Shown: positions 42,159-63,198 of the stretch, piece by piece
How positions within the stretch are numbered: the first letter of the stretch is position 1
Layout of the letters: each line of letters begins with the position of its first letter
Source of the DNA: Paracyclopina nana
Lineage: Eukaryota > Arthropoda > Copepoda > Cyclopoida > Cyclopettidae
Reading direction: 5' to 3'
DNA length: 64,000 bases
Assembly: GCA_019096065.1 (NCBI GenBank)
Contig: JAGUCH010000005.1
Location: 5,766,001-5,830,000 of the forward strand
The notes under the pieces: model-generated
Databases searched by the model: none
What the model was told of the DNA's origin: nothing
The model's input: the letters and a program-made list of their open reading frames with translations, nothing else
Made by a program: the position numbers and the translations under genes

Positions 42159-43079
42159 TGCCCTGCTTTTGGTGTACGTGTTGTTGTGGTAGCTGTAGTA
42201 TTTTGGCACAAAAGTCAGATGAAAAGGCCACTTCTGTCACCTGGCACAAAAAGTCAAGACATTGTTGTAGTCTCCACGTGGATGTGTGTTGTATTAGCAG
42301 TGTGCTTTTACATCCTGCTCAGACGAGCTTCGCCCATCAATTGCGAGCTTTTCGCCTTCGCGCTCGCGTATTTGTACATACTTCTGCGTCTATACTGAGT
42401 ACTTAGCCCATGGTATATTCTGCGATGCTCAGCGTCGTCCCATCAAACCTGTCCCTTGGTATTATTAAGATTATTTAATTTCAGTCTCCATAAGAGAAAG
42501 CAGATAACCAAATTTTTTGGATTTCAAGCTGCTTTCTCTTTTGGTCACAATTGTCTGTTTTTTCAGACGGGCTAATATTAGGTATTTTTTCTTTGTCGAC
42601 TATTTGGCAAGTTGAACCGTAGGCCTCATTTAAAACTGGGAAAAGGAAACGTAAGCAGTAATAAAAAGTCGCAGAGAGCTTCTCTTATTCGCATTTCGAA
42701 CAAACCTATATTACGAGCTGGCTCTCCAGATTATTACAATGCTGTTTTGTAGAGCTTTTGCCAACCTGGATCACGTCAAGTGTAAGCCATTTTAAACCAA
42801 CGAAACAATGAGACGTACTATGAGATTTTGGTGCCCAAAAAGCTGCTTGAGAGGAAGTCAATTAAAAGGGAATTTACATTCAATTAAAAAAACTACGTCT
42901 CAGAGTTTGCTTTTAACATAGTACGTTTCATTTACTAAAGAGAGCAATTTCTTACAAAAATCTAGAATACATTGTTATGAGTGACCTCAGACTGGTTTTA
43001 CTTGGGCCAGTTTGGTATTTGTATTCAAACCTTGCCTCGAAAGAGCTAGGGCAAGCCACGTTTTTTGCTCCATGTAGTA
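42159..43079. other. Channel promoter side and transposon left flank
   Basis: No gene recognised. Contains a few short inverted repeats, such as gagaaagcag at about 42492 with ctgctttctc at about 42530. It ends at the TA next to the transposon left terminus. Confidence 0.4.
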
Positions 43080-43095
43080 CCCAGCGAACCCTTTT
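43080..43095 (+). repeat. Left terminal inverted repeat of CMC element
   Basis: Sixteen bases, CCCAGCGAACCCTTTT, preceded by TA. Identity to the right terminus stops after base 16. Confidence 0.92.
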
Positions 43096-43149
43096 TTGTT
43101 TTTAAACGAGACAAAAATCTGTCAAAAACTTGATGAAAAGTTCCCCTCC

Positions 43150-43400
43150 GAACGCGTTCCTTATTATTGTATCGGTAACAAGAAATCTATACGAAATTAG
43201 ATGTCGGAACACGTTTGACAAATGCAATAAAAGTCGATCAGAAATTAGTTATCTCGTATCAATTTTTCGCGATAATTAACGAGTTTCAAACTCGTTTCAA
43301 ATCATAAGAAACGCAAAAAATAACACGATAAAAACTCAATGATAAAAAACAGAGACATTTTAAAACATGTTTAAAATTAGATGAAAAATCCATCGTGTCG
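43150..43400. repeat. Left subterminal motif cluster
   Basis: Several direct and inverted copies of an (A)ACGAGTTT-like word, including aacgagtttcaaactcgtttcaaa near 43278-43301, and related acgtttgac and gaacgcgttc. CMC elements typically carry such subterminal repeats as transposase or accessory-protein binding sites. Binding here is inference. Confidence 0.55.
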
Positions 43401-43695
43401 CTCCCGCATTTTTAATTTTCGAAAAAATAAATTACGATTTTGTTTCAAAAGGCCGCATTTATTATCACATATTCAGCATTTGACATATTACTGATTAATT
43501 TTCTATCATATTAGAAAGCATATTTTTGAACTTAAGGTGCGACATTTCTGCTGTAGCGTCTTTTTATCGCATTTTCCTTTTTTTCACAAGACAAATTTGC
43601 AAATATGATACACATCGAGACATGTTAAATTATCATGCAGAGATTAATATTGATATTGAAAAGAAAACATTTGTAATTTCTCCATTCTGAACGAG

Positions 43696-46600
43696 TTATT
43701 TTCTTGCATCCTTTTCAGCCTGCTCCCTGGCATACTTCTCCACCATCTTCTTGTGTGCCTCGAGCAATCTTGCCTGCAACTCTTCAGGGGGAATATTGGC
43801 AAATCGGTTTGGCAAGGCATAGGGATCATCCGGGAGCTGTAAAGAAGAAATGTTTTCATGCATTTTGTTTTTGAAACGTCATTAGAAGCTTTTTTGAAAG
43901 AGTGCAGTTTGAAAGTTTGTAAATGTAGCGTGTTTTTGAAGAACTTTCTAATTTCGAATTTTTTGATGTTCTTTTTTGTAATTTGCAAATATGTTTGAAA
44001 AATGAGGATGGGCTTACAGGTGGGAGAGGCTGAGGTCTTCCATGCTCATCATAAGCACTAGCAATGACTTTCACTGGAGCGGATTTCTGTGAGCCGCGAG
44101 TTTGATAAGAGCTGGTGGATTGGTGTGAAGTGCTGGCGCTTGGAATGCAATCCGTATCAGTTGTTTGGACATGAAGATTTTCTGTTGAGATTCCATGAAC
44201 AACGATTGGAGTACCAAAACGATTAACTCCTTGCAAAGTTGATTGGCTCTGAGATGGCGGCGGCACATCCTTTGATTGCGGCGGCGGCGGCGGCAAATCC
44301 TTTGATTGCGGCGGTGGCGGCAAATCCTTTGATGGTTTTTGAGAGTAGCATCTTTGATCCTCATCAGACGACAATGTGACAGTTTCCACATTACGATCAA
44401 ATTCGGATGGCGACTCAGCTTCACCTTCCTCATCACTGCCCTTATCCCGTGGAGAAGCTTGTTCCTCATCTTCACCTTGATCAGAGGATTCATTGAGAGA
44501 TGCCATCGACACATTTTTGAGTTGCTCCTCTTCATCTGACTCGCTATCCGAACGAGTTCGCCTGGCAGAAGCTTCAACGTCGATGGGAAACTTATTCATC
44601 AAAGCCTCCATGTCCGAGATGTGATCATTGAGGACTTTCTTGTAAATTGACTTCAACTGAAACAAAGATTGAATTTAAGTACTATTGTCTGGCAAAAGTT
44701 TTTAAAACTTACGTCCGGCACGTTTCTGGGCTGATCAAATGTCAGCTTCGTCACATCCAAGCCATCGGCCTTAGCAGCAGCGATAATGCCCTGCATCACT
44801 TCGTATACACTGAAAACTTGTTTCGAAGTGTTTCCATGCCTCAACGTGTCAAACAAGACATCCTCGCTCTTGAACGGCTTTCCTGATGCCTCCCGATCTT
44901 CTCCAGTGCCACATTCAGCCCTGTCCTTCCTCAGCTTTGATCGGTACTCGGCTTTGTCATCCATTTCCACAGTGTTGGGAATCGCATGCTGCAGTTTAAC
45001 AAATTATAAAAATTGAACACGTTTGCAAATTAAATATTTTCTTACCACATTGTGAACGTAGAATTCGTTATCAACGTTGTGGAGAGCATCAATTGCAGCA
45101 TCTGGATTAGCACCTTCCGCAAAGGCAACCTCCAACATCTTGGTGCGAGCATTTGCAAAACGCGTTGCCATCACCTTGCGAACTCCTTCAAAGGAGCCGG
45201 CAAAAGTTTCTCCGCCCAGTTGCAAACTAGTGCGAACGAACGGAATGATGTCGGTCTTGATTATCTTTTCGAATGCATCTGGAACAATCCTTTTGTAGTA
45301 CAGAGTCTTCTTGGCACTGGAATGAGAAATGAGATATGAAACTAAATCGCGATTTGGAAATTAGTGCAGCTTAATTACTTTTTTGGGTGGCGCCACACAA
45401 GATGTGCCATGGCGAGCCTCGTTATCAAAACGTTAGTCAACGAAAAAGCAATCCGAACGTTAATTGAGCCTTTGCGAGACTCAAAATCATCTTTGAGCAG
45501 AGCGACAATCTTCGACTGCACATAATGAGACGACAGAAAGGCATCAAAAGCCACCCCCATGTAGTCAAATGGCAGAAAACGTCCTAGGATTCCACATGAT
45601 CTGGATGTCTTTTCAGCTGCATTTTCAGTGATGTTACTGATCTCACAGCGGATTCTTGCTTGCTCAATTGAGAAGTCCTCAATCGTCGTTTTAGTGGAAT
45701 TGATGGCATCCAAGATGCGCTGTTAAAGTTTAATTTGTTGAAATCAACATTTAGATTATGCAAAAATGACACTTACCGTGGTGCTGCTCTTCGTAGCTTT
45801 CGTAGCAAGGGCCTCCAAAACTTTTTGAATCTCGTTGGCAATGAGATCCTTGATAGTTTCCCGTAGCTCGACAAACTTAGGTTCCACAGCTTCCTCAACG
45901 GCGGCCTTCACAACAGCTTTGAACGGATCCGACTGAGCCCGATTACGTTCCAAATCCGTCACAAACGATCGAAGCTTGTTATCAAGCTGCTCTTCACTGA
46001 TAACTATCGCCTCAGTATAGGTAGCAGCAATGCCCTAAAGAAAAATGGGTTTGAATACTGATAACTTGAATAAACTTAAGAGATACTTACATAAGTCTTA
46101 GTCACCGGATCGTAGTTCACGATCTGCTGTTGACCTTCATTAAATGGAGGTAGCGGAAGGTCTTGCTGAACAATTTCAGGTCCGGTAGTTGAAGCTGTTG
46201 ATGGACCAGCCGATGTTTGAGGCAAATCTTCAACTGCAGCGAGCTGCTTTTGCAATGCCATCCTTTTGGCTGGCGACATTTTAGACGTTATCGTGTCTGA
46301 ATCAGATTCAGAAGTTTCTTCAACAATCCGTTTCCGAGTCTTGTCGGCAGATCTCTTCGACGCATCCTTTGACTTTGCCGCCACTTTGGACGGCGGCATC
46401 GCCTTTGATGTTGATGGCTGCGGCTCATTTAGAGCCTCTTTGCTAATTGACCCAGCATCCTTATCTTGTTTTTTGGAATCCTTTCCGCTCAGTCCCATTG
46501 TGCGTGATGTTCCAGGAGTTGGTGTGAAGAACGGATTATTGAGTAGCACACCACTTGGCGAAGTCTCCTGGAAATCCACACTGCTTAATCCGATGGAAAA

Positions 46601-47301
46601 GTAAGTTACATTGCTACGTACTTTTGCAGAGGGCGCAGATTGCACCACGGAGGAGCTTGGGATAGCTTTTTTGGCTCCTTTTCCTTTCGAACGAGTTTGA
46701 AAGTCTTCTTCAGAGTCTTCCTCATCTCCAGTCGTCTGAGGCAATTTGGAGACATCTTTGCTACGCGTGGAGATTTCCTTCCATCGTCGATACGTTATCT
46801 TGTTCGTGATTGGATCACGCTCTTCGTAACTCCAATCCTTCATCATTTTCTCCCCAAAGTTCTTGATAAGCATTGCCTTCAAGGACGACTTTTGTGGGTA
46901 GGGCAACGATTTCAATCGAGCATTCAAATCAACGAGCAAACTCTTCACTCGTCCTTTGCTAGTTCCTATTGAGATTGAAAGTTTAAATCCTAGTTTCTAT
47001 AAGCTCACGAAATATTCTTACCTTTCTCGACGCGGCAGAAAATTGACATCGCCTTTGGCGGTTGGGTCTCATCAAGCAAGAAGTTATTGATTTTTGCCCT
47101 GTTCTGCAGGGTGAGCTTCTTTTTTGGATCAAATCCAACAATGTCCTGCACTTTTCGCTCGTCAGCAAAAACATGATCCGACGGCAGCCATTGAAAGGGT
47201 TCGGCGTCCTTCAAGCAAACGTAGATAATGACGTCGTACGTTGTCGATGGAGTGTCAGGAGGCGTCTCGTCAACTTCGTTGGCCTTCTTCTTTGGTCCCA
47301 T
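43696..47301 (-). CDS. Transposon companion protein (second CMC gene), unknown function
   Basis: Eight exons, 47022-47301, 46091-46965, 45777-46034, 45379-45719, 45046-45316, 44713-44988, 44018-44656 and 43696-43836, join in frame to 1,026 codons. The start is ATG in MGPKKKANEVDE; the frame is also open upstream from a GTG, which I did not use. The N-terminal region is followed by VKSLLVDLNARLKSLPY and a Lys/Ser-rich linker. A Leu/Glu-rich helical block follows, then a globular-looking region (RSCGILGRFLPFDYMGVAFD and FVRTSLQLGGETFAGSFEG), an acidic Ser/Glu-rich stretch and a PPPP/QSKD repeat segment. I recognise no family. By position it is the analogue of the DNA-binding accessory gene of plant CACTA elements; that role is inference. 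Confidence 0.8.
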
Positions 47302-47715
47302 GGCTTCAATTGGGTTATTTTTGGGCAGATGCACTAGATTTTAGCAGATTTCGATTTTGAAACAAATTTGACGTCAGCTTTCGTCAATGGCGGACGACGC
47401 TCTGGGCCGTTGAGAAGCTTCTCGAATGTTCCGCCAAAAGAAGGCGGCGAGGGCAGTTTTGGCCGGCGGTGGCTGACAGTAAGGGCGCATCTAATTTTTA
47501 TCGCGTTTCTTAGTCGATCAGAAAACAAAGATATGTAAAATTAAAATACTAAATTTTGATTTTGTTCACTTAAATAGTTAGTTCATGTTATTTTAAATAA
47601 CAAATATTTTTCGACATATAATTTTTAATTTTTAATTTTTTTAAACGCCCCATCAGCCATTTGTACATGGCAACATCGACAACGTGGCTGCTGGTAATAA
47701 AACCCAATTGTGAAA
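47302..47715. promoter_or_regulatory. Bidirectional promoter region of CMC element
   Basis: The 414 bp between the divergent start codons must contain both promoters. It is AT-rich in its right half. No specific motif assigned. Confidence 0.5.
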
Positions 47716-50700
47716 ATGCCAAAAAAAAAGGCAAAAACGAAGCAAGCAGATGCTGCCAAGCAGGCACGATACCGCCTGCGAGCGTCCGAAGCTAATCGAA
47801 AACTACGTATGATTCAATATCGTTGTGCAGCAAAAGTGCGAGCATATCAACAGCAACTAGGAATCACAGATGAAATGTAAGCTGGAGCATAGAAAATTTG
47901 GTGAGGTCGTTTCTAATTTTATTTTGTTTGTAGGCTGAAAGACGAAAACTTCATGGGAGAGCATCCAGATATCTGTCCATTTATTCGTGAAGATCCAGAA
48001 ACAATTAAGGAATGCATTCGGCAATTGCGAAATACATCGTCATCGTCATCAGCCGATGTGGAAAGCAGTGACAGTGACAAAGTTGATGAGATTGTTGACG
48101 ATATGGAAAATCCAAACTTGGAGAGAAACAAACGACTGTTGAGAAAGAATTTGAAACGTAAATTGGAAGAGCTTGGTCCTATCGACCCAAACGATACAAC
48201 ACCTGAATTTGAAGATTCGCAAGTTGATGAAATTTTTCTCCAGTCTCAGCAAGAGGATGGCCAATCCTTTGATACTCCGACTTATGATGAGTTGATCGAG
48301 ATGCGAAATAAAAAGTGTAAATTGATGGCGGAAAACATCAAAGTCAATGATAACGAGTCCGACAATCCACAGCCATCAACATCCGGTCTCCAAAAGAGTG
48401 CCGACAAAGAGATGCCAAGCGTCAATTACCAGAGTGATGATAACGAGTTCGCAAATCCACAACCATCAACATCTGGTCTCCAAAAGAGTGCCGACAAAGA
48501 GATGCCAAGCGTCAATTACCAGAGTGATGATAACGAGTTCGCAAATCCACAACCATCAACATCTGGTCTCCAAAAGAGTGCCGACAAAGAGATGCCAAGC
48601 GTAATTAATGAAAATGATGCTTTCAACAGCTGTGATGAAGAGGTCACCTTCTATGAAGCTTCTGAAACGAGTTTTGAAGAAACAGACGAAATCTATTCAA
48701 AACGAGTTCCAATTCATTCCAGTCCTGGAGAGTTAGATTTCCTAGAAAATGAGCGATCTGATGAACTAACTGATCCCAATGAGGATTGTGACGATGAACC
48801 GGCAACGTTTCATGACCTTATTGCGTTACCAAATGTTGATGAAGAGGATGATGTTTTCTATGATGCACTCGAGGAAGTGCAAGAGGAGGGCGAGCAAGAC
48901 CCACGCGAGGATAATGCGATGTTTCAACATGGCATCAACTTGAGTGATTTTCGTGAAGCCTTGGAAAAAGAAAACGAGTTGCCAACAGTTAAAGAGCGTA
49001 ACCATGCATTATATGCGCGCTTCTTTTTCTTATCATCGATTCTGGCAGTTACCGATAGAGCGGCTAAAGCTTTTTGGAACTTCGCTCGCTCACTAAGTGA
49101 TAGGACATTGCTTTCATTTAAAGCTATAAAGGCAAGATTTACGAAAGTCATTCCGCCGGTCCATATGACATATGAGTTCTATGACACCCTGAAGAAGACA
49201 ACTCATCAATATCAAGGCACTAAATTCCCACGAAAAAGATTTCCTAGGCCTCGCTACCGTTTATTGTGTGAATGGTCCACCGTAGAAATGACCGAACTTT
49301 ACAAATTCTTTCGAAGTGTCCACAAGGATGATATTGTCAGTGAGTTTAATGGCAAGAAATTCGTGGACTTGTTTGTTGACGGAGTGCCCCTGGCAAAGTC
49401 CTCAGACTGCCAAATGAACGTGTTATGTGCTCGTTTTCTACCTTGTAGGAAAGTTTGGCCAGTCTCTATTCACGTGTACCGAAGAGGCCAGAGTACTGAC
49501 ATTGTTGAGCTATGTGCCAGAATACTCCAAGAATGTGCTGATAACGATTTTGTAGTGCGTAAGTTTATTGGAGATAGTCCTATGCGTGCCAAGATGAAAT
49601 GCCTTAAGCAACATAATGGGTACTGTAGCTGCGAATGGTGCTATTGCATTGGAAAATACCTCAAATTGGAGAAAAAAATGAGTTTTGATGCAGAAACAAT
49701 GAAGTACAAACGTCGTACCCATGAAGATTGGCTGAAAATAGCTGGTAAAATTGAATCTGCGCCAAATGACATTTCGGAACGAGATCAGTTCGGCATCAAA
49801 GGATATTCGCCGCTGCTACAACTCAACAACTTTGACATAATCCGCGACTTTGTACCCGATCCCATGCACAATATTTCGCTTGGGGTCGGTCGGGCTCTCT
49901 TGGGACTCATTATGGAAATCAATGGTGCGAAGGATATTGTGACAATGGCGGGAATTGAAATTGCAAAGGCGTTTGACAATCTTTGGATTCATCAAACAAT
50001 TCCACAAGAGTTCCCTCGGGTACCACGCTCAATTCGAAACAACTTCAAACATTTGAAGGCGAGCGAGTTTATTTCGATAATATGCTGTGGGTTCACCCAT
50101 ATGTACACAGCGTTAAAGCCGTTTGCATCAAAATCTGTCATAAAAACATGGCTCTACTTTGCATACATCGTCCATGGAGCATTGATGCCTGATCCAATAT
50201 TTGCACAAATCATGCCCGATTCTGTTGCTTATCGACTTCAGAAAGAGTTCTACCGATTGTTTGAGCAGAATTTTTCAAAGGCAAACTGCACATTCAACAT
50301 CCACACCTTTAGTCACCTGTTGGAAATAAGAAAAATCGGACCATTAAGTGATTACAGTGCAATGCCGTTCGAAAGCTATTTTAGCTACCTAAAAAAGATT
50401 ATCAAGCCATATACTCTTAGTTTTGCAAAAAGCTGTTTGATAAAGTCTTTCATCTGTAACATGAACGACCACTCTTGCCGGTACCAAGTGTCAGTAAAAG
50501 TGAACGGGCCAAAACGTACGATTAACAACATTGTATGCACAAGAGACGGTCTATTTTACTACATGTTTGATACTGATGGAGATTACTATGTATGCAACCA
50601 AATCATGACCAAAAAGTTCTTCACCCCTGAAGCTCCGCTATTGGATTGGGATTACGTTCACGTGAAGGTGCTCGACACCATTGATGAAGAGAATGTCAAG

Positions 50701-50784
50701 GTGCACAAGAAAAAAATACTTTGCAAAGCCATTTTGGCCGACAAGGTCTTGATTTCCGTACCAAACGATGTATACTTTACATAA
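47716..50784 (+). CDS. CMC-type DDE transposase
   Basis: Exon 47716-47876 (starts MPKKKAKTKQADAAKQARYR, very basic) joins across a 57-bp intron to 47934-50784, giving 1,003 codons. The N-terminal third is acidic and low-complexity, with three 30-residue repeats (48331-48600). The catalytic part has FVDGVPLAKS (Asp about 536), FIGDSPMRAKMKCLKQHNGY (Asp about 601) followed by the cysteine cluster CSCEWCYC, then RNNFKHLKASEF and MPFESYFSYLKK (Glu about 867). This order, with the HNGYC.C..C segment and the .NFKHLKASEF motif, matches CACTA/Tnp2-like and related animal transposases. The triad assignment is by motif position only. No internal stops, so probably functional. Confidence 0.85.
48331..48600 (+). 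repeat. Three 90-bp tandem repeats within transposase
   Basis: Units 48331-48420, 48421-48510 and 48511-48600. The second and third are virtually identical and the first diverges at its 5' end. Each encodes 30 residues with NPQPSTSGLQKSADKEMPS. The repeats lie in the disordered N-terminal region. Confidence 0.95.
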
Positions 50785-51039
50785 AAGGTCATTATGTCTT
50801 TTCAAACAAAATAATGTTAATTTCCTGAGCAGATAATATGTGTATTCAGGAGGTTGTATTTGCTGAAACATAATTGGAATATGTGTTGAATAAACATTTG
50901 TGAAAAGCAAAACAAATTGCATGCAAGTAGTTGTTGTAACAGCATTCAATTGAGTTATTTACAATATCTATATTCCATTTCATAGCATCAATTTTAAGAA
51001 ATTAGATAAAAATTATATATATATATGCGCTCTCAGGGT

Positions 51040-51230
51040 TGAATTTTAACATCGCGTTTCAAATTCGTTTGTAAAACATTTTAAATTAGATGGAAAAATA
51101 CGTTTCTCATAACTTGTTTGAAAAGATTTTTCGAACGAGTTTCCTGAAACTCGTTTGAGAAAACGTGTTTGCAAAGTGATTTCAAACTCGTTCATATCGG
51201 ATTTCATTGAGAAATCTAATGGGAAGCCGA
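51040..51230. repeat. Right subterminal motif cluster
   Basis: Copies of aaactcgtttg, cgaacgagtttcc, cgtttcaaattcgtttg and tttcaaactcgttc, the same word family as at the left end. Confidence 0.55.
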
Positions 51231-51263
51231 TATGGCCAAATTCAATGCTGGGAACAGCTGCCG

Positions 51264-51279
51264 AAAAGGGTTCGCTGGG
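51264..51279 (-). repeat. Right terminal inverted repeat of CMC element
   Basis: AAAAGGGTTCGCTGGG, the exact reverse complement of 43080-43095, followed by TA at 51280-51281. Confidence 0.92.
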
Positions 51280-52979
51280 TAGCTTCATTGATTGCAGAAA
51301 ATATCTGCTATAGCAAAAATATGGCTAAAGCCTTTTTCATGAACAACAAAATAATTGTTTTGAAAAAAATATTGATTTGGGGTTTTAGAAACAGAAGAAG
51401 TCAGAGTGAGACAGAGCAATGTTTTCAAGGGCAAATCGAGCAATTTTTGGCATGCTAAATCAAATTTTTAAAACTTTTATAACGAAATAATTTCTATAAG
51501 CTAATTATTTGCAATGAATGCACCCATTTGAGTCAAGAATTGAGGAAAAAATGAGATTGCTTACATTTTAGTATTTTTCATACTTATAAATAGTTTCTTC
51601 CATGTATTAATTTTTTGTGCATTTTTGTGATGTGTCATGGGGCTTACATGAACAGGGCATAAGACAGCTTTGGTCGGACACGCACATGGTAACGTAGCAG
51701 CATAGGAGAGCAGAAAAAGTGGGCATCCAAGTCAAATACTCAAACGAACTTCACCCTGGAGCAATCGGTGTGTGAACAAAGTATCCCTCGAAAGCTGTCA
51801 GGCCTTTATTGTATTGCGATTTTGGAAAGTTCTGCTGTAGCAAAAAGAACTGAACGTAGGTAGAGGCAAAACTGCGTGGAGCATGAAAATTGTGCCTTTT
51901 TCCCTCAAGAGATAAAGTAGGAGGTGAAAATGAATGAATATACTACCTACTTCGGCTAACGAAGAGCAATTGGCCTAAATATATAAGTGGCCAGGCTGAT
52001 GTAGAACTAATATGATAATTGCTTCATACCAACCATCCATGAGGGTTCTACGTAAAAATAAGGTTTGTTCATCAGAAAAACTGCATTGTGCTAAAATAAA
52101 ATGCTTAAAATCAACGCCAAGAAAAGGTGAAATATTTGAATGTTCCCTTGTATGTAAGTGGTATCAGATTGTATTATTTATGCTGTATTTATTCTGGTGC
52201 AGTAGGTGAACACCGCATAAATGCTCAAAGAAAAAACTGCTTGTCTTGTCATTGTTTTTTGGCCAGGTTAAAAAAAGGCTTTGGCAAGCTAGCAGTATTT
52301 CGCAAGAGCTAGCTTTTTTGGGGTTCCTTTTATCTACTTCTCCCCAAGCAGCAGCAGCAGAAGCAGCGGCTTTTTGATGCTGAAAAAAATAAGACAAGCA
52401 GGGTTTCTTTTGTTGACTCTGTAATTCACCCTTCATTAGTGGCAGGAGATCAAGATGAGTTGCTGCTCTATAAGGAAGCAACGTGCAACTTTGCCAAAAG
52501 ATTGAAGTGCAAAAAAAACCTTTTATCTCCTCTCCTCTTTTTTCCTCTCTTTTGAGAGCTGCATGAGGATGTGAGAATTCATCAGTGGAATTGAAACCGA
52601 GAAAATCAGTATTCGACAAAACAAAAGGAAAAGCCGTTTTTCCTCTAAATATTTCCTAAGACAATGTTCATGTGCAAAGGTGCTTTTCAGAAAGTAAAAA
52701 ATTGTCACAAGGCAAAGGAGTTTTGATAACAGGCCACTTTAGAAGGGCTTCTCAACTAGTTGAACTGAGAATCGGGTTGACAAATTTAGGGCAAGAATCG
52801 GAAATTTTTTAATTACTTCAGCTGTTGTAATAACTCTGCATTTTGAGAGTTGTTGGTTCATATTTTATTCGTGTGATGCATGTAGATAGTAACCAGTTTA
52901 TTGGCACTGAAATTGAAGTAAACTTTGAGCGGTTTCTTTCAATTAGTCTTTAATCGACCTATTTTTACCCAAAGTAAAC
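51280..52979. other. Spacer between the two large elements
   Basis: About 1.7 kb of AT-rich sequence. Short open frames show no recognisable domain or splice structure. No gene seen. Confidence 0.5.
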
Positions 52980-53029
52980 GGCCCGATCCGTGGCGTGTTT
53001 TTTCATAGGCACTATGTGACTATGTAAAC
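52980..53029 (+). repeat. Left 50-bp terminal inverted repeat
   Basis: Identical over 50 bases to the reverse complement of 61122-61171. Confidence 0.93.
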
Positions 53030-53305
53030 ATGCTTAAGTAGCTGCGATAGTCAGCTTGAGTCTTTTATTTCATTGAAGTAAAATGGCTGACTATTGCGAG
53101 CTGCATTACATAAAAAGCAACTCATGGCTGACTAAACGCTTTTTGATCAGTCTTTGAGCCAGTTTGCTGAGAAATGATGCCAATACTTCCCAAAAAAGCC
53201 AAAATCAGCCGTCTTATTTGAAGAATCCAAAAATAACCACCCAAAATGTGCACGTTTGCTTTTGTTTACATTTTACTTTTGCTGGGCCGACGGCATGTGA
53301 GACTC

Positions 53306-54060
53306 AAGTCAAGAAAATCGCCGATTCAACCTCAAATATCGCCAATTTGACCTCGAAAATCGCCGATTTGACCTCGAAAGTCGCCGATTCGGCCTCGGAA
53401 ATCGCCGATTTTGACCTCGGAAATCGCCGATTTTGACCTCGGAAATCACCGATTCGGCCTCGGTAATTGCCGATTTGACCTCGAAAATAGCCAATTCGAC
53501 CTCGGAAATCGTCGATTTGGCCTCGGAAATCGCCCATTCGGCCTCGAAGATCGCCGATTTGACCTCGGAAATCGCCGATTCGGCCTCGGAAATAGCCGAT
53601 TCGGCCTCGGAAATCGCCGATTTGACCTCGAAAATTGTGATTCGACCTCGGAAATCGGACTTAAGTCAAGAAAATCGCCGATTCAACCTCAAATATCGCC
53701 AATTTGACCTCGAAAATCGCCAATTTGACCTCGAAAGTCGCCGATTCGACCTCGAAAATCGCCGATTCGACCTCGAAAATCGCCGAGTCTGGCCCCGAAA
53801 ATCGCCGATTTGGCCTTGAAAATCGCCGATTCTGCCTCGCAAATCGCCGATTCTGCCTCGCAAATCGCCGATTCGGCCTCGGAAATCGCCGATTTGACCT
53901 CCAAAATAGCCAATTCGACCTCGAAAATCGCCGATTTGGCCTCGGAAATCACCCAATCGGCCTCGAAAGTCGCCAAGACGGCATCCAAAATCGCTGATTC
54001 AACCTCAAAAATCGCTGATTCAACCTCGAAAATTGCCAATTGAACCTCAAAAATCACCGA
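53306..54060 (+). repeat. 21-bp tandem array, open in several frames
   Basis: About 36 units of the form tcgccgatttgacctcgaaaa, 21 bp each with substitutions. Because the unit is a multiple of three and lacks stops, several forward and reverse frames stay open. One forward frame reads as the heptad IADLTSK/IADSASE, another as RRFDLEN. A longer period exists: the block starting aagtcaagaaaatcgccgat at 53306 recurs at 53663, 357 bp later, exactly 17 units. No Met-initiated gene with splice support was found, so I call it a minisatellite. Confidence 0.9.
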
Positions 54061-54249
54061 CAGATGACTTAAAAGCTTAAAAACGGTACGGATCAATGTA
54101 CTTAATAGTTTAGAATCAATTAAATAATGAAATCTTTTTGCAGGTCTTTTTTATGAGTGAAAAAGCTGCCGAATTTGGACTTGAAAAGTGGCGCATTTGA
54201 AAGTGGAGAAATTAGCCTTGATGAAAGCTGATTTTTGGCCCCAAAAATT

Positions 54250-57200
54250 GGTACTAGTAGCGTAAGAGTTGCTCTATGGATAAGCTGGTGGGGTACGTCG
54301 AATAATATTGGAAGAGTTCACTCTTTCAAGGTTTAACGGCCAGATTCTCATCAGTGATGCCTAGCTGTCCAACCTTACATGCCTAAGAATGGCAATCATA
54401 TCAGTGGTCACATTAGATTGTTAGCAAATTAGCGTAAGAGTTGCTCTATGGATAAGCTGGTGGGGTACGTCGAATAATATTGGGAGAGTTCGCTCTTTCA
54501 AGGTTTAACGGCCAGATTCTCATCAGTGATGCCTAGCTGTCCAACCTTACATGCCTAAGAATGGCAATCATATCAGTGGTCACATTAGATTGTTAGCAAA
54601 TTAGCGTAAGAGTTGCTCTATGGATAAGCTGGTGGGGTACGTCGAATAATATTGGGAGAGTTCGCTCTTTCAAGGTTTAACGGCCAGATTCTCATCAGTG
54701 ATGCCTAGCTGTCCAACCTTACATGCCTTAGAATGGCAATCATATCAGTGGTCACATTAGATTATTAGCGTAAGAGTTGCTCTATGGATAAGCTGGTGGG
54801 GTACGTCGAATAATATTGGGAGAGTTCGCTCTTTCAAGGTTTAACGGCCAGATTCTCATCAGTGATGCCTAGCTGTCCAACCTTACATGCCTAAGAATGG
54901 CAATCATATCAGTGGTCACATTAGATTGTTAGCAAATTAGCGTAAGAGTTGCTCTATGGATAAGCTGGTGGGGTACGTCGAATAATATTGGAAGAGTTCA
55001 CTCTTTCAAGGTTTAACGGCCAGATTCTCATCAGTGATGCCTAGCTGTCCAACCTTACATGCCTAAGAATGGCAATCATATCAGTGGTCACATTAGATTG
55101 TTAGCAAATTAGCGTAAGAGTTGCTCTATGGATAAGCTGGAGGGGTACGTCGAATAATATTGGGAGAGTTCGCTCTTTCAAGGTTTAACGGCCAGATTCT
55201 CATCAGTGATGCCTAGCTGTCCAACCTTACATGCCTTAGAATGGCAATCATATCAGTGGTCACATTAGATTATTAGCGTAAGAGTTGCTCTATGGATAAG
55301 CTGGTGGGGTACGTCGAATAATATTGGGAGAGTTCGCTCTTTCAAGGTTTAACGGCCTGATTCTCATCAGTGATGCCTAGCTGTCCAACCTTACATGCCT
55401 AAGAATGGCAATCATATCAGTGGTCACATTAGATTGTTAGCAAATTAGCGTAAGAGTTGCTCTATGGATAAGCTGGTGGGGTACGTCGAATAATATTGGG
55501 AGAGTTCGCTCTTTCAAGGTTTAACGGCCAGATTCTCATCAGTGATGCCTAGCTGTCCAACCTTACATGCCTTAGAATGGCAATCATATCAGTGGTCACA
55601 TTAGATTATTAGCGTAAGAGTTGCTCTATGGATAAGCTGGTGGGGTACGTCGAATAATATTGGGAGAGTTCGCTCTTTCAAGGTTTAACGGCCAGATTCT
55701 CATCAGTGATGCCTAGCTGTCCAACCTTACATGCCTTAGAATGGCAATCATATCAGTGGTCACATTAGATTGTTAGCAAATTAGCGTAAGAGTTGCTCTA
55801 TGGATAAGCTGGTGGGGTACGTCGAATAATATTGGGAGAGTTTGCTCTTTCAAGGTTTAACGGCCAGATTCTCATCAGTGATGCCTAGCTGTCCAACCTT
55901 ACATGCCTAAGAATGGCAATCATATCAGTGGTCACATTAGATTGTTAGCAAATTAGCGTAAGAGTTGCTCTATGGATAAGCTGGTGGGGTACGTCGAATA
56001 ATATTGGGAGAGTTCGCTCTTTCAAGGTTTAACGGCCAGATTCTCATCAGTGATGCCTAGCTGTCCAACCTTACATGCCTTAGAATGGCAATCATATCAG
56101 TGGTCACATTAGATTATTAGCGTAAGAGTTGCTCTATGGATAAGCTGGTGGGGTACGTCGAATAATATTGGGAGAGTTCGCTCTTTCAAGGTTTAACGGC
56201 CAGATTCTCATCAGTGATGCCTAGCTGTCCAACCTTACATGCCTAAGAATGGCAATCATATCAGTGGTCACATTAGATTGTTAGCAAATTAGCGTAAGAG
56301 TTGCTCTATGGATAAGCTGGTGGGGTACGTCGAATAATATTGGAAGAGTTCACTCTTTCAAGGTTTAACGGCCAGATTCTCATCAGTGATGCCTAGCTGT
56401 CCAACCTTACATGCCTAAGAATGGCAATCATATCAGTGGTCACATTAGATTGTTAGCAAATTAGCGTAAGAGTTGCTCTATGGATAAGCTGGTGGGGTAC
56501 GTCGAATAATATTGGGAGAGTTCGCTCTTTCAAGGTTTAACGGCCAGATTCTCATCAGTGATGCCTAGCTGTCCAACCTTACATGCCTAAGAATGGCAAT
56601 CATATCAGTGGTCACATTAGATTGTTAGCAAATTAGCGTAAGAGTTGCTCTATGGATAAGCTGGTGGGGTACGTCGAATAATATTGGGAGAGTTTGCTCT
56701 TTCAAGGTTTAACGGCCAGATTCTCATCAGTGATGCCTAGCTGTCCAACCTTACACGCCTAAGAATGGCAATCAAATCAGTGGTCACATTAGATTGTTAG
56801 CAAATTAGCGTAAGAGTTGCTCTATGGATAAGCTGGTGGGGTACGTCGAATAATATTGGGAGAGTTCGCTCTTTCAAGGTTTAACGGCCAGATTCTCATC
56901 AGTGATGCCTAGCTGTCCAACCTTACATGCCTAAGAATGGCAATCATATCAGTGGTCACATTAGATTGTTAGCAAATTAGCGTAAGAGTTGCTCTATGGA
57001 TAAGCTGGTGGGGTACGTCGAATAATATTGGGAGAGTTCGCTCTTTCAAGGTTTAACGGCCAGATTCTCATCAGTGATGCCTAGCTGTCCAACCTTACAT
57101 GCCTAAGAATGGCAATCATATCAGTGGTCACATTAGATTGTTAGCAAATTAGCGTAAGAGTTGCTCTATGGATAAGCTGGTGGGGTACGTCGAATAATAT

Positions 57201-57622
57201 TGGGAGAGTTCGCTCTTTCAAGGTTTAACGGCCAGATTCTCATCAGTGATGCCTAGCTGTCCAACCTTACATGCCTAAGAATGGCAATCATATCAGTGGT
57301 CACATTAGATTGTTAGCAAATTAGCGTAAGAGTTGCTCTATGGATAAGCTGGTGGGGTACGTCGAATAATATTGGGAGAGTTTGCTCTTTCAAGGTTTAA
57401 CGGCCAGATTCTCATCAGTGATGCCTAGCTGTCCAACCTTACACGCCTAAGAATGGCAATCAAATCAGTGGTCACATTAGATTGTTAGCAAATTAGCGTA
57501 AGAGTTGCTCTATGGATAAGCTGGTGGGGTACGTCGAATAATATTGGGAGAGTTCGCTCTTTCAAGGTTTAACGGCCAGATTCTCATCAGTGATGCCTAG
57601 CTGTCCAACCTTACTTGCCTTA
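54250..57622 (+). repeat. 172-bp satellite array (20 units; 164-bp variants)
   Basis: Unit starts (at cgtaagagttgctctatgg) are 54261, 54433, 54605, 54769, 54941, 55113, 55277, 55449, 55613, 55785, 55957, 56121, 56293, 56465, 56637, 56809, 56981, 57153, 57325 and 57497. Spacing is 172 bp, except four units of 164 bp (starting 54605, 55113, 55449 and 55957) that lack 8 bp at the junction (attattagcg instead of attgttagcaaattagcg). Units differ at only a few positions. The last is truncated near 57622. No coding potential. Confidence 0.97.
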
Positions 57623-57869
57623 GTATGGGATTTATTTATGAAATTTTGTAGAGTTTTATAAACATTTGAAACTTAATTGACTACATTTGCTGATTTTTTT
57701 CATTTTTCATGGTGCATGGTTTATCCTAACGTAAAATTGGAGGTTGCTTAGGATGGAAATTGAGTCAACTGGCCTCTATTCATAAATTGCTGAAGCAGAT
57801 AAATACTTAGCAATTGGATGGATAGTGATCAGCTTACAGAACGATTCATAGGAGCTCTGGCCAAATGTG

Positions 57870-59440
57870 TACAATCAGCAACTTAAGTGGCGTGATGCTT
57901 AAGGCATGGCAGCTTTTGTGATGGCATAAGTTTATTGTGGCATCTATGTTTTGTGTAAGATGAGCAACTTAAGTTGCCATATGCATGAGGCCTCTGAGTT
58001 TGTTGGAAGACAAGCAGCTTAAGTTGTTATGTGAATAGGGCATCGCATAAGTTTGCTGTGGCCTCTGAGTTTGATGGAAGACGAGCAGCCTAAGTTGTTA
58101 TGTGAAAAAGGCATGGCATAAGTTTGCTGCGGCCTATGAGTTTGATGGAAGACGAGCAGCTTAAGTTGCTATGCGAAAGAGGCATGGCATAAGTTTGCTG
58201 TGGCCTATGAGTTTGATGGAAGACGAGCAGCCTAAGTTGTTATGTGAAAAAGGCATGGCATAAGTTTGCTGTGGCCTCTGAGTTTGATGGAAGACAAGCA
58301 GCCTAAGTTGTTATGTGAAAAAGGCATGGCATAAGTTTGCTGTGGCCTATGAGTTTGATGGAAGACGAGCAGCCTAAGTTGTCATGTGAATAAGGCATGG
58401 CATAAGTTTGCTGCGGCCTCTCTGTTTGATGGAAGACAAGCAGCCTAAGTTATTATGGGAAAGAGGCATGGCATAAGTTTGCTGTGGCCTCTGAGTTTGA
58501 TGGAAGACGAGCAGCCTAAGTTGTTATGTGAAAAAGGCATGGCATAAGTTTGCTGTAGCCTCTGAGTTTGATGAAAGACGAGCAGCCTAAGTTGTTATGT
58601 GAAAAAGGCATGGCATAAGTTTGCTGCGGCCTATGAGTTTGATGGAAGACGAGCAGCTTAAGTTGCTATGCGAAAGAGGCATGGCATAAGTTTGCTGTGG
58701 CCTATGAGTTTGATGGAAGACGAGCAGCCTAAGTTGTCATGTGAATAAGGCATGGCATAAGTTTGCTGCGGCCTCTCTGTTTGATGGAAGACAAGCAGCC
58801 TAAGTTATTATGGGAAAGAGGCATGGCATAAGTTTGCTGTGGCCTCTGAGTTTGATGGAAGACAAGCAGCCTAAGTTATTATGCGAAAGAGGCATGGCAT
58901 AAGTTTGCTGCGGCCTCTAAGTTTGATGGAAGACGAGCAGCTTAAGTTGCTATATTCATGGGGCATGGTATATGTTTAGCCTCTGAGTTTGGTGGAGGAC
59001 GAGCAGCTTAAGTTGCTATATGCATGTGGCATGGCATAAGTTTGCTGTAGCCTCTGAGTTTGGCGGAGGACAAGCAGCTTAAGCTGCTATAGCAGCTTAA
59101 GCTGCTATAGCAGCTATATGCATGAGGCATGGCATAAGTTTGCTGTAGCCTCTGAGTTTGGTGGAGGATGAGCAACTTAAGTTGCTATATGCATGTGGCA
59201 TGGCATAAGTTTGCTGTAGCCTCTGAGTTTGGCGGAGCATGAGGCATGGCATAAGTTTGCTGTAGCCTCTGAGTTTGGCGGAGGATGAGCAGCTTAATTT
59301 GCTATGTGCATGAGGCATAGCTTAAGATAACTGTTGCCTCTGAGTTTGGTGGAGGATGAGCAGCTTAAGTTCCTTTATGCATGTGGCATTGCATAAGTTA
59401 GCTCTGGCCTCTGAGTTTAGTGGAAGGTGAAGCGTTTTCT
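57870..59440 (+). repeat. 71-bp tandem array
   Basis: About 20 units containing gtttgctgtggcctctgag, tttgatggaagacgagcag and cctaagttgttatg. Spacing in the centre is 71 bp (for example 58051, 58122, 58193). Units diverge towards both ends; the right part shifts to tttggcggaggatgagcag and contains a palindrome, gcttaagctgctatagcagc, near 59090-59110. Unrelated in sequence to the 172-bp satellite. Confidence 0.93.
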
Positions 59441-61121
59441 TGTCAGGACAGTTAGCTGTGGCCACTTGGTTTAGTTGAAGTTCCTGACCAGCGTAGGCTG
59501 CACTAGTTTGCTGTTGCCAATGAGGAAGGTGAGGATGATTTGAATTAAAAATACCACGTAAAAAATAAGGCTTTCTATTTCTAGCTATATGTAAAGGATG
59601 CTGCTCATGGACTCAAGAAATGCACGAAGCGGACAGCTCTGAAGAAGCTCTAAAATGGTCAGAATTGGCAGTAGTATGGTTCCAATTACTGCGCCACACC
59701 CTGTAAAATGGACCAACTATGCTATGAATGGCTTCAATGATGAAATGCTGTCCTAGAATTGAAGAGCCAATGAATTCTTTATATTTAATGTTGTCAAATT
59801 TTTGTATCAATTGTCTTTTTGATTATATGAGATAATGTGATGAGATACATCTAGGTAGGATAGAAGCAGGCACCCTTAATAAATTGTTAAGATAGATAGG
59901 TAGACACAGGCCCGTCCACCAAGGCATGCCTTGACGCAACTTTTTTAAGTCTCACGCAACCAAGATTCTGTCATTAGTTGGAGGGCGCCACAGTCGCCCA
60001 AGTACATTAAAAAAAGCGCTAAATTCAAAATTAGATTTTGCGGCCCCTTGGCTGGCGTGAAGTTGAGCGCACGCTAGTGAATGATGCGAGTGACGTATTA
60101 ATCTGAGCTACCAGATTTGGCTTTTTTCCGACAAATTTGCCCTCATTAGACTCTTTCTGTAAGTGACAGATTTTTTCTTATCAAATAGAGTAGTTCCGCT
60201 TGGTTATTTCCACAGAATTCTAATTTTTTTTTCTGTCAGAAGCCCTTCCATAGCATAGTTAGACCGCGTGTTAAGCTAATTTCAGCTGGTAGTTCACCTT
60301 ACATTCTAGATCATCTTGGGTAGACATATATTTTTTATTCCTTTTTCATGATCTAGTAAGTTAGGCCACAAGAAAAGTACCTAAAAGTGCCTTGGGGAAA
60401 TCCTTCATTAGGCCAGCCAGTCACCTCCATTGCACCCAGCCTGCACACTCTACAACACCGGTATGAGGCCAAAAAGATTCCTGACCAGAACCAGTATGAG
60501 GCCAAAAAGATGCCTGAGAAGAAGGCCAATCCACCAATTGGGGCTTTATTGCTTTCATGTGGCCAATGACAGCAATAGTTCATTAATAAAATAGTAAAAT
60601 TAAGGCCTTTCAAGCCTGCATTTTTGGGCCATTCAAGGCTGCAAACTCTGGCATTGAAGACTGTCTTCAACTTCAGGTCATTAAAAACTGCAGAATCTGG
60701 CTTTCAAGGCCACTAATTCCACTAATTCTGGCTGTTCAAGACTGCAAATTGAACTTTCATTTTTATACTGTTGCAGAAAATTTTAATTGTGAAAATAAAT
60801 GCTCATGACTTGGTATCTCTACATTTTGTGCTTTGAGAGCAGTATATCTGATGAACTATGATCATTTCTAAAGAGAGCTGCTCAATGATTAGATATTTTT
60901 GACAACTGGAAAGCAATAACTCAAGTAAAAATAAGCCAATCTCTGATTAAAATGGATTTTTTTGGCAGAAACAATTGTTGCTCAAACTTCTTATTAGTGT
61001 TGATAGTCACCAAGTACTTAAGCACCTTGACATGCTATTTAAATGCCATGGTATGCTATTTAAATACTTGCAGTTTAGCTGCTTAAATAGTAGCTACTTA
61101 AGTAGCGGAGTGTATAGTCAC
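59441..61121. other. Non-repetitive right part of the TIR-bounded unit
   Basis: AT-rich, with no transposase or other domain. Contains a short internal duplication (tatgaggccaaaaagat at about 60464 and 60495) and a run of related phrases built on 'caaggc...gcaaactctgg' at 60600-60740. Possibly relics of the element's ancestral interior. Confidence 0.45.
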
Positions 61122-61171
61122 GTTTACATAGTCACATAGTGCCTATGAAAAAACACGCCACGGATCGGGCC
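61122..61171 (-). repeat. Right 50-bp terminal inverted repeat
   Basis: Exact reverse complement of 52980-53029; followed by aac. Confidence 0.93.
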
Positions 61172-63198
61172 AACATCACCTGAAGTTTATTTCTGCGTTT
61201 GTCATATGACAATTTTTCTGGTATAAGTAAGGTATTCGGCGTGAATTATCGTAATTTGGATGGTACATGAGTTTCGATTAAGCTTTGTTTTGCAGAGAGG
61301 AAAGCCAGTGGAGAAAAATTGGCTGAATCGGAATTAGCACAGTGCATCTCTCGCAACCTTCCCATAATTAATTCCGAGGAGGATTCTTCTTGAATTAGTA
61401 GGTCATTGAATGCAGCTTAACCGAAGTCGACGTAGGCAGACACTGCAAACAATCTCGAGCTATCGCTTCACAAATATCGATTATGGGAAAAGAAAGTCAA
61501 CATGACGATCGCCACTGGAATTGCGAAGAAGAAGAAGCAATCAGTGTGTAAAAAGCAATTTGCCGCAAAACAAAGAAAGCCTTTTAAAAAACGCGGGGCC
61601 TTGCGCGAGAAATGATAGAGCTTGTGCGTAATCTCCTAAGCATGAGTTAATGCCCGAAAACAAATGAAGAAGCATCAGCTGATGCTCAAGCTGGAAGAAG
61701 AAGCTTTACACAAAAGAGAGAGGGAGAGAGTGGAGAGCAGCTACGTATGCAGTGAGAGCTCTCTTTTTGGTATATACCACTACATATCCCTGATGCGAGT
61801 AGAAAGGGTGCCCACCTTGAGGACGAGTGACGTCGAAGTACATAACCTTCTATTGCCGCAGAAGCTGCAGCGCAGGGCTACCAGATTGGGAGCAGCACGG
61901 AGTGACCTCCGTGGAGGCCGCAGTAGCAGCAGAGAAGGCGTGCGAGGCCGACTTGAGCTTAAGCTACTCAGTACTACTTCAGTGCTCGGTTGCTAACAAC
62001 GAGTACACTGGCCGCGAGGATTGTCGAGCAGCAGCCGCAGCAGCCTTCACTGTGTTGCAATTTCGCTTGAACAAAAAAAGAGACATTCGCGGCCTTCGGC
62101 GAGCAAAATCCAACTTCGGTGAGGCCAGCATCATCGTGAGGTCGTCCCCGCGAATTTCGCCTACTGTGGCCAGCCTCGGAGCCTCGGTCGCGTAAGTTTT
62201 CCGTTTATGTTATATATGTCGCGCGCGCGCGCATGCGTCAAAGGCTCAGAGCAACTTTGGGGCATAATAATTCGGTTCGACCCGCAATCAAACTAATAAT
62301 CTCGTTGCTGCTCCACCAAAGCGGAAAAATCGCATTAGGGCTCGTTACGTTGCGTGCAATAATAATAATTTCCATTATCCGCTTTGGAATACGTGAGTCG
62401 CCGTAATGCGGCAATGCCCGCTTAAGTGGCACGAAAGCGCGTTTGCCGGTCGAAATGCATATCATCTTTTCCGCAACAGTGTGGCCTCGTCGTGCCGCCC
62501 ATGGTGAATTGCGGAGGCCGTGGTCGCTGCAGCAGCTCCAGCCTCCAGCTCTGGCTTGTTCGGAGCAACGAAGCAAGAAGAAGTGACTGGTGTAGAAGCG
62601 GCAAAGCCTGTGACCACCGAAGCAGCAGCAGCCATCGGCCTCGAGCCCTCGTCTTGGAAGAAGAGCAGTGGCGGAGGCCGACATGGCCGTCGGCCTCGAG
62701 CGGCTGCAGCAGCCTCTTCCGCAAGAGCAGCACCACGACTAGCCGTAGACTAGCCAGCCACGGACGCCGCGCGGCCTCCAAGAGAATTAGAAAGCCGCCA
62801 CTGCGAGCGACGACGACTGCGAGCTCAGCCAGTTGCAGCAACAAGAACGAGGTCGCAGCTGCACCCCCCAAGTCCACGACCGAGTCCAGAAACGAGGCGA
62901 GGACAACAAAAGCTTCAGCAGCAGCCTCATGGCCAGCGGGCTCACCCTCGCAGCAGGGGTGGCCTCGGCGGAGGAGGCCTCGCCCCATCGCACCACTATC
63001 CAGCCGCTGATTCTTGAGCCCGCTGCAGAGTGAGACACCCATGTGCGAGCGGCCTCGGAGACCCGCCATGAAGTCCTCCGACAGCTCGCGACCTCGCAAC
63101 AGCCGCATCAAGTGACCTCTCATGCATAACGACGAGGACAGCTGAGGGATCGCGGGCCTCACTCACCCTTCGTGACAGTGATTCGCGGTCCCTGCAGT
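61172..63198. promoter_or_regulatory. GC-rich upstream region of the RGS gene
   Basis: From about 61850 the sequence becomes GC-rich with many GCA/GCC triplets and CpGs. It includes an alternating (CG)n run at 62220-62232. Long frames are open on both strands here, but they overlap each other and carry no domain, so I treat the interval as promoter and 5' UTR, possibly with an unrecognised 5' exon. Confidence 0.45.

Follow-up and report, generated by a model that had tools for sequence, protein, structure and literature searches.

How do three unrelated tandem arrays come to lie between one pair of inverted ends? This question is raised by a locus of the copepod Paracyclopina nana, in which positions 52980-61171 of the analysed window (64,000 nucleotides of contig JAGUCH010000005.1) form a unit of 8,192 bp bounded by perfect 50-bp inverted ends. 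An initial annotation, made from the sequence alone, had proposed either a transposon that breeds and spreads satellites or the repeated capture of tandem DNA. Our analysis strongly favours a non-autonomous transposon with terminal inverted repeats (TIRs), probably of the cut-and-paste kind and moved in trans, in which the three arrays are ordered passengers turned over by exchange or slippage.

Structure of the unit and its copies

The outline of the unit drawn in the initial annotation, including a candidate AAC duplication, was borne out. The two 50-bp TIRs are identical and base 51 is the first mismatch; the left one (52980-53029, forward strand) starts with GGCCCGATCC and the right one (61122-61171) lies on the reverse strand. 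AAC flanks the unit on both sides, and flank comparison identifies these bases as the left (52977-52979) and right (61172-61174) copies of a 3-bp target duplication. Between the ends, Tandem Repeats Finder resolved three arrays on the forward strand: array 1 with a period of 21 bp (53313-54060, 35.6 copies), array 2 with a period of 172 bp and some units of 164 bp (54258-57628, 19.8 copies), and array 3 with a period of 71 bp (57989-59424), which has 15.6 good copies up to 59090 and is degenerate after. On the same strand the arrays are separated by spacer 1 (54061-54257) and spacer 2 (57629-57988) and enclosed by a left (53030-53312) and a right (59425-61121) non-array segment. As had been claimed, these three satellites fill most of the unit. 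By our own segmentation their share is 68% in the window unit and ranges from 49 to 75% over five copies.

A search for the unit end throughout the genome (91.95 Mb, 10 contigs) returned ten matches, which form five inward pairs, so the ends are not mostly unpaired. A 20-base end pattern with up to three mismatches recovered the same ten and three related ends, and its reversed control gave none. The window copy is called C5 (8192 bp) and the others are C3a (9934 bp), C3b (5645 bp), C1 (5984 bp) and C8 (4259 bp). All five are bounded by TIRs, with a few mismatches between the own ends of C3a, C3b and C8. Moreover, the three kinds of array occur in identical order in every copy and their copy numbers vary. 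For the 172-bp unit, Tandem Repeats Finder counted 26.2 copies in C3a, 7.0 in C3b, 8.3 in C1 and 2.0 in C8. The period of array 3 is 71 bp in C5 and C1 and about 85-88 bp in the C3 copies, and C8 shows regular sites spaced 71 bases apart.

Outside the five units we found no match to the 21-, 172- and 71-bp arrays of the window, in searches that scored every first-look candidate, skipped very common words and used array 3 in its 71-bp form, not as the variant of about 85 bp present in C3a and C3b. Large blocks of these arrays elsewhere, which the initial annotation had considered, were thus not matched, and neither were arrays in the same order lacking inverted ends. Satellites are spread by this element only in the sense that it carries them as passengers.

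None of the five copies holds a convincing gene. The longest frame has 196 aa and frames of more than 116 aa lie mostly within the 21-bp array; the longest frame outside the arrays (116 aa, right segment) is partly common to C1 and not conserved in C3a and C3b. A search of the unit for RNA families and ribozymes gave three matches with E 0.36-0.5, all under the gathering score, and the end pattern had no hit among viral contigs. The right segment of C5 also contains a nested short element of about 412 bp (59907-60318, forward strand) with an 8-bp duplication, GGTAGACA, identified by eye. C1 represents the empty site and tens of other copies are present in the genome, and the element is a later insertion into the unit.

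Insertion and target site duplication

Insertion of the unit is demonstrated by empty-site paralogues and goes beyond inference. Exact identity of the 3-bp flanks was found in three of the five copies (AAC in C5, GCT in C3a, TTT in C8; chance about 9e-5), and flank agreement longer than 3 bp was seen in none of the five. The flanks are AGT/ACT in C1 and TTG/ATG in C3b. Searches with the joined flanks revealed uninterrupted relatives of two target sites, those of C1 and C5. The joined site of C1 is wholly covered by eight relatives, and all eight of those fetched read AAGAAG-ACT-TTCAAAAG. Therefore, ACT was the duplicated target, and one base of its left copy changed afterwards. Since the relatives are 96-99% identical to the C1 target, this insertion should be recent, as judged from sequence identity. 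For the C5 target, which belongs to another repeat family, 17 relatives of about 75-76% identity were listed; the eight that were fetched all cross the site uninterrupted, with small gaps nearby.

The target of the C1 unit is itself part of a young repeat family (96-99% identity over 300 bp), represented by G000:C8:4601879-4602178 and seven others.

Paired ends, a duplication of constant length and empty sites for two of the five copies together characterise a non-autonomous TIR transposon. Of the two proposals in the initial annotation, that of an array-bearing transposon is supported.

Short relatives and the search for a transposase

Short elements with similar ends accompany the units. A pattern for ends like GGCCCGATCCTTAGCAGG gave 64 hits, ten of which are the unit ends, and none in the reversed control; a second end-pattern search gave 80 hits, including two unit ends, against one in its reversed control. 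The short elements that we inspected measure 70-385 bp. For counting duplications 17 of 39 were kept, the others being dropped with a second end more than 2 of 18 bases off the consensus, and nine of these 17 two-ended relatives carry an exact 3-bp duplication, none a longer one (P about 2e-11). No second end was present within the fetched stretch at 11 of the 38 loci fetched with short-element ends. Besides, a block of about 50 bp past the terminal repeat is common to one short relative and the right end of the units (in C5 at 61057-61104, forward strand; TATTTAAATA ... CTACTTAAGTA). In C5, C3a and C8 alike, none of 300 shuffles attained its similarity. The shared ends, the 3-bp duplications and the subterminal block place the unit, large as it is, in a family whose other members seen are short and resemble miniature inverted-repeat transposable elements (MITEs).

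Two further observations concern end-like sequences. The short element at C2:3237229, outside the 39 given for counting, has AAT on both sides. One pair of end-like motifs is present three times at G000:C3:3441615-3455835, with a spacing of about 7 kb that points to a tandem duplication of this length.

The initial annotation had suggested looking for a related copy that encodes a transposase, and none was found. Bare GGCCCGATCC occurs at 96 exact sites (20 in the reversed control), and the inward-facing exact pairs at distances of 0.4-15 kb are the five units and one other pair. This other pair, C1:8066661-8074513, was rejected as an autonomous partner: it surrounds what appears to be a coiled-coil gene of the host, and the three bases flanking it on either side are unequal (AGG, TTA). 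The gene, presumably DRC4-like, had no Pfam match above the cut-off. In two more near-consensus pairs the ends are 583 and 799 bp apart. Coordinates compared by eye placed none of the 25 matches to PF13359 (DDE_Tnp_4, Harbinger-type) between paired ends, and likewise none of the matches to a transposase-like protein encoded in the window between paired GGCCCGATCC ends (78 of 236 candidates scored).

The ends and the 3-bp duplication match no superfamily that could be confirmed. PIF/Harbinger elements duplicate 3-bp TWA targets, and this assignment was rejected with none of 13 duplications being TTA or TAA. CACTA/EnSpm elements have CACTA/CACTG ends and duplicate 2-3 bp of variable sequence; the variable 3-bp duplication does fit, but the unit ends are GGCCCGATCC. 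A Foldback type like Tetris or Galileo was set aside in view of inverted repeats of only about 50 bp and arrays that are internal and in a single orientation. Helitrons and Helentrons, such as Cg_HINE, are not known to have TIRs and target duplications of the unit's kind, whereas the unit shows both. Zator, Academ and other superfamilies with 3-bp duplications would be recognised by a superfamily-specific transposase.

Array turnover and a mosaic copy

In the left segment, spacer 1 and right segment the aligned bases of C3a and C3b agree at 98.7-99.3%, but these copies carry 24 and 6 recognised 172-bp units, respectively, as cut at an anchor that may miss partial units at the array edges. Patterns of several units recur: units 05-07 of C3a equal units 12-14 at every informative column. 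The last units are divergent, and they correspond between copies; C5_18 equals C1_05 (100%), and the nearest to C3a_23 is C3b_05 (97.3%). The units of C5 average 98.0% identity among themselves and 93.8% to those of C3a. Within-copy means are not always higher, as seen in C3b (90.3%) and C1 (94.5%, compared with 95.9% between C1 and C5). These sequence patterns fit unequal exchange or slippage with incomplete homogenisation. That the element breeds satellites, as the initial annotation put it, is supported to the extent that copies nearly identical elsewhere vary in array length and in the type of their units.

A mosaic structure is seen in the window copy, in which the first 1.3 of 8.2 kb, approximately, are of the C3 type and the remainder is of the C1 type. 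We scored informative sites at which C1 differs from both C3a and C3b, leaving out gapped sites and those discordant between C3a and C3b. On the left, C5 is C3-like at 12 of 15 sites in the left segment, at 112 of 135 in the 21-bp array, where the counts depend on aligning a repeat, and at 28 of 32 in spacer 1; on the right it is C1-like at 239 of 240. For the left segment with its terminal repeat, aligned bases show 93.8-98.2% identity with the remaining copies, at 71-278 gap columns. Spacer 1 is 95.4% identical to the C3 copies and 81.9% to C1. Identity to C1 is 99.7% in spacer 2 and 99.5% over aligned bases in the right segment, and in the 172-bp array of C5 the C1 type already begins with the first unit. 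This places the switch at the left border of that array, some 1.28 kb from the start of the unit. Mixed arrays were also found in other copies: the first 172-bp unit of C1 is nearest to C3a (98.7%) and its other five are nearest to C5 units, and of the two units of C8 one is nearest to C5 and one to C3a.

These observations bear on how the transposon may have evolved. Its family would be defined by ends beginning with GGCCCGATCC and by a 3-bp target duplication without any fixed sequence being apparent at the target, and a transposase acting in trans would move both the unit and the short relatives that share the end motif. The three unrelated arrays would already have been present in their fixed order before the five copies separated. 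They may grow and shrink via unequal exchange or slippage, likely during gap repair after excision or during exchange between copies. Repair with another copy as template would reassort the left and right parts, the switch falling at or in the 172-bp array. The arrays would then be passengers spread by transposition and, in this assembly, not seeds of free satellites. A more far-reaching reading is that the edge or interior of the 172-bp array is a recombination joint, at which template switching reassorts left and right parts as cassettes while array lengths turn over. We regard this role as possible rather than probable.

Several points weigh against the transposon reading and the turnover proposed with it. 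No autonomous copy or transposase with these ends was found with the unit end, the short-relative end or the bare 10-mer. Gaps near the C5 junction obscure the exact duplication in the paralogues, C3b has no exact 3-bp duplication, and the same holds for eight of the 17 short relatives. Empty-site relatives of C3a, C3b and C8 were not seen among the 40 of 102 candidates scored. The right segments of C3a and C3b differ by about 400 gap columns, so that change extends beyond the arrays, and array lengths depend on the assembly. Lastly, with only five copies, the case for recombination depends on a single clear mosaic plus one or two arrays of mixed units.

Alternative explanations

The arrays could serve transposition itself, the 71-bp array multiplying transposase-binding sites as has been proposed for Tetris and Galileo. 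Sites of the GCWACTTAAG type number 12 in C5, 15 in C1 and 14 in C8 versus 0-0.1 expected, a palindrome of this kind is present near both unit ends, and the Tetris paper proposes a binding-site role for internal repeats (PMC4079207). However, C3a and C3b have just two such sites each, near the ends, and were nevertheless inserted, C3a with exact GCT identity. Moreover, the 71-bp unit resembles the ends no better than chance: out of 300 shuffles, 47 in C5, 50 in C3a and 58 in C8 did as well. The shuffle test likewise gives no support to the idea that this array is copied end sequence. Overall, we consider a function of the arrays in transposition unlikely.

Similarly low is the probability that the arrays were captured from older genomic satellites before the five copies separated. 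Such an early capture is possible: the array units show no resemblance to the ends beyond chance, which leaves room for an origin outside the element, and a review describes capture by MITEs and Helitrons. Nonetheless, no outside source of the arrays was matched in the genome. Repeated capture, as formulated in the initial annotation, finds no support, given that all five copies share the three kinds in one order.

It is improbable that the unit is mobilised by the family of a transposase-like element located next to it (43078-51281). This element has perfect 18-bp inverted ends (core CCCAGCGAACCC) with TA outside both and an intronless frame of 955 aa, for which no Pfam family was found and which we take to be reminiscent of Tnp2/CMC-type transposases. 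The C-terminal part of the frame has at least 81 matches in the genome including itself (78 of 236 candidates scored), and internal stops are lacking in most of them. By protein search, related frames lie upstream of two units and in the same orientation, 2.2 kb from C5 (47917-50784) and 2.9 kb from C3b (G000:C3:6282377-6284044). The chance of two such placements in five is roughly 5e-4 for the 81 matches found, an estimate that is post hoc and uses a self-chosen distance. Against kinship, the core CCCAGCGAACCC is unlike GGCCCGATCC and the flanks suggest a 2-bp duplication. A composite of the window transposase element and the unit was rejected, as the intervening DNA is dissimilar at the two places (C5, C3b). 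The frame also contains a 90-bp in-frame tandem repeat (48347-48607, 2.9 copies).

Finally, a segmental duplication of an array-rich region with incidental inverted ends would account for the existence of five similar copies, and is extremely improbable in view of the 3-base flank identities, the uninterrupted target paralogues at two loci and the flanks that differ among the five copies.

Comparison with known elements and implications

Internal arrays are known from several transposons. Tx1 and 1723 of Xenopus laevis are TIR elements of kilobase size, in which internal tandem arrays vary in copy number and the ends and target duplications are other than those of the unit, and miDNA4 and Xstir of Xenopus are shorter than the unit. 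The foldback element Tetris of Drosophila virilis resembles the unit in being apparently non-autonomous with variable internal tandem repeats, and it shares end sequence with the short MITE DAIBAM as the unit does with its short relatives (PMC4079207). There, changes in repeat copy number were attributed to unequal crossing-over (PMC4079207). The repeats of Tetris are situated in its inverted repeats and occur at other places too as satellite-like arrays (PMC4079207), whereas the arrays of the unit lie between its ends, share one orientation, comprise three kinds and had no match outside. The Cg_HINE elements of the Pacific oyster are described as Helentrons carrying arrays of one kind, exceptionally two (PMC7492417); the unit differs in its TIRs, its 3-bp duplication and its three arrays. 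The MITE miDNA4 is, like the unit, a TIR element whose internal tandem repeat varies in copy number, and Xstir is composed of a MITE and a tandem array, as described in reviews (PMC9659126, PMC12628747). Both have, as described there, one repeat kind each in contrast to three in the unit, and miDNA4 is classed there as Tc1/mariner. The reviews further state that transposon-internal arrays can vary in copy number and that tandem repeats have been captured by a MITE and by Helitrons (PMC9659126, PMC12628747), and one mentions different array types inside a single Helitron or Helentron element.

Among the papers listed by our searches, judged by title and abstract, none describes a three-array TIR element. 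The statement that the arrangement matches no named element thus stands as far as recognition goes, but close precedents of the arrangement exist in Tetris, Cg_HINE and miDNA4. One or two internal satellite arrays in transposons are already known from these sources, and the three-array TIR form extends them.

The family offers a clean case of a TIR transposon carrying satellites, since every found copy is fully readable and the searches matched no free arrays. Comparing C3a with C3b allows the turnover of arrays in a mobile element to be measured against near-identical flanking sequence, and the copies show tandem repeats travelling and being reshuffled inside a transposon. If the arrays act as joints, internal satellites would drive the modular evolution of the transposon and be more than mere passengers.

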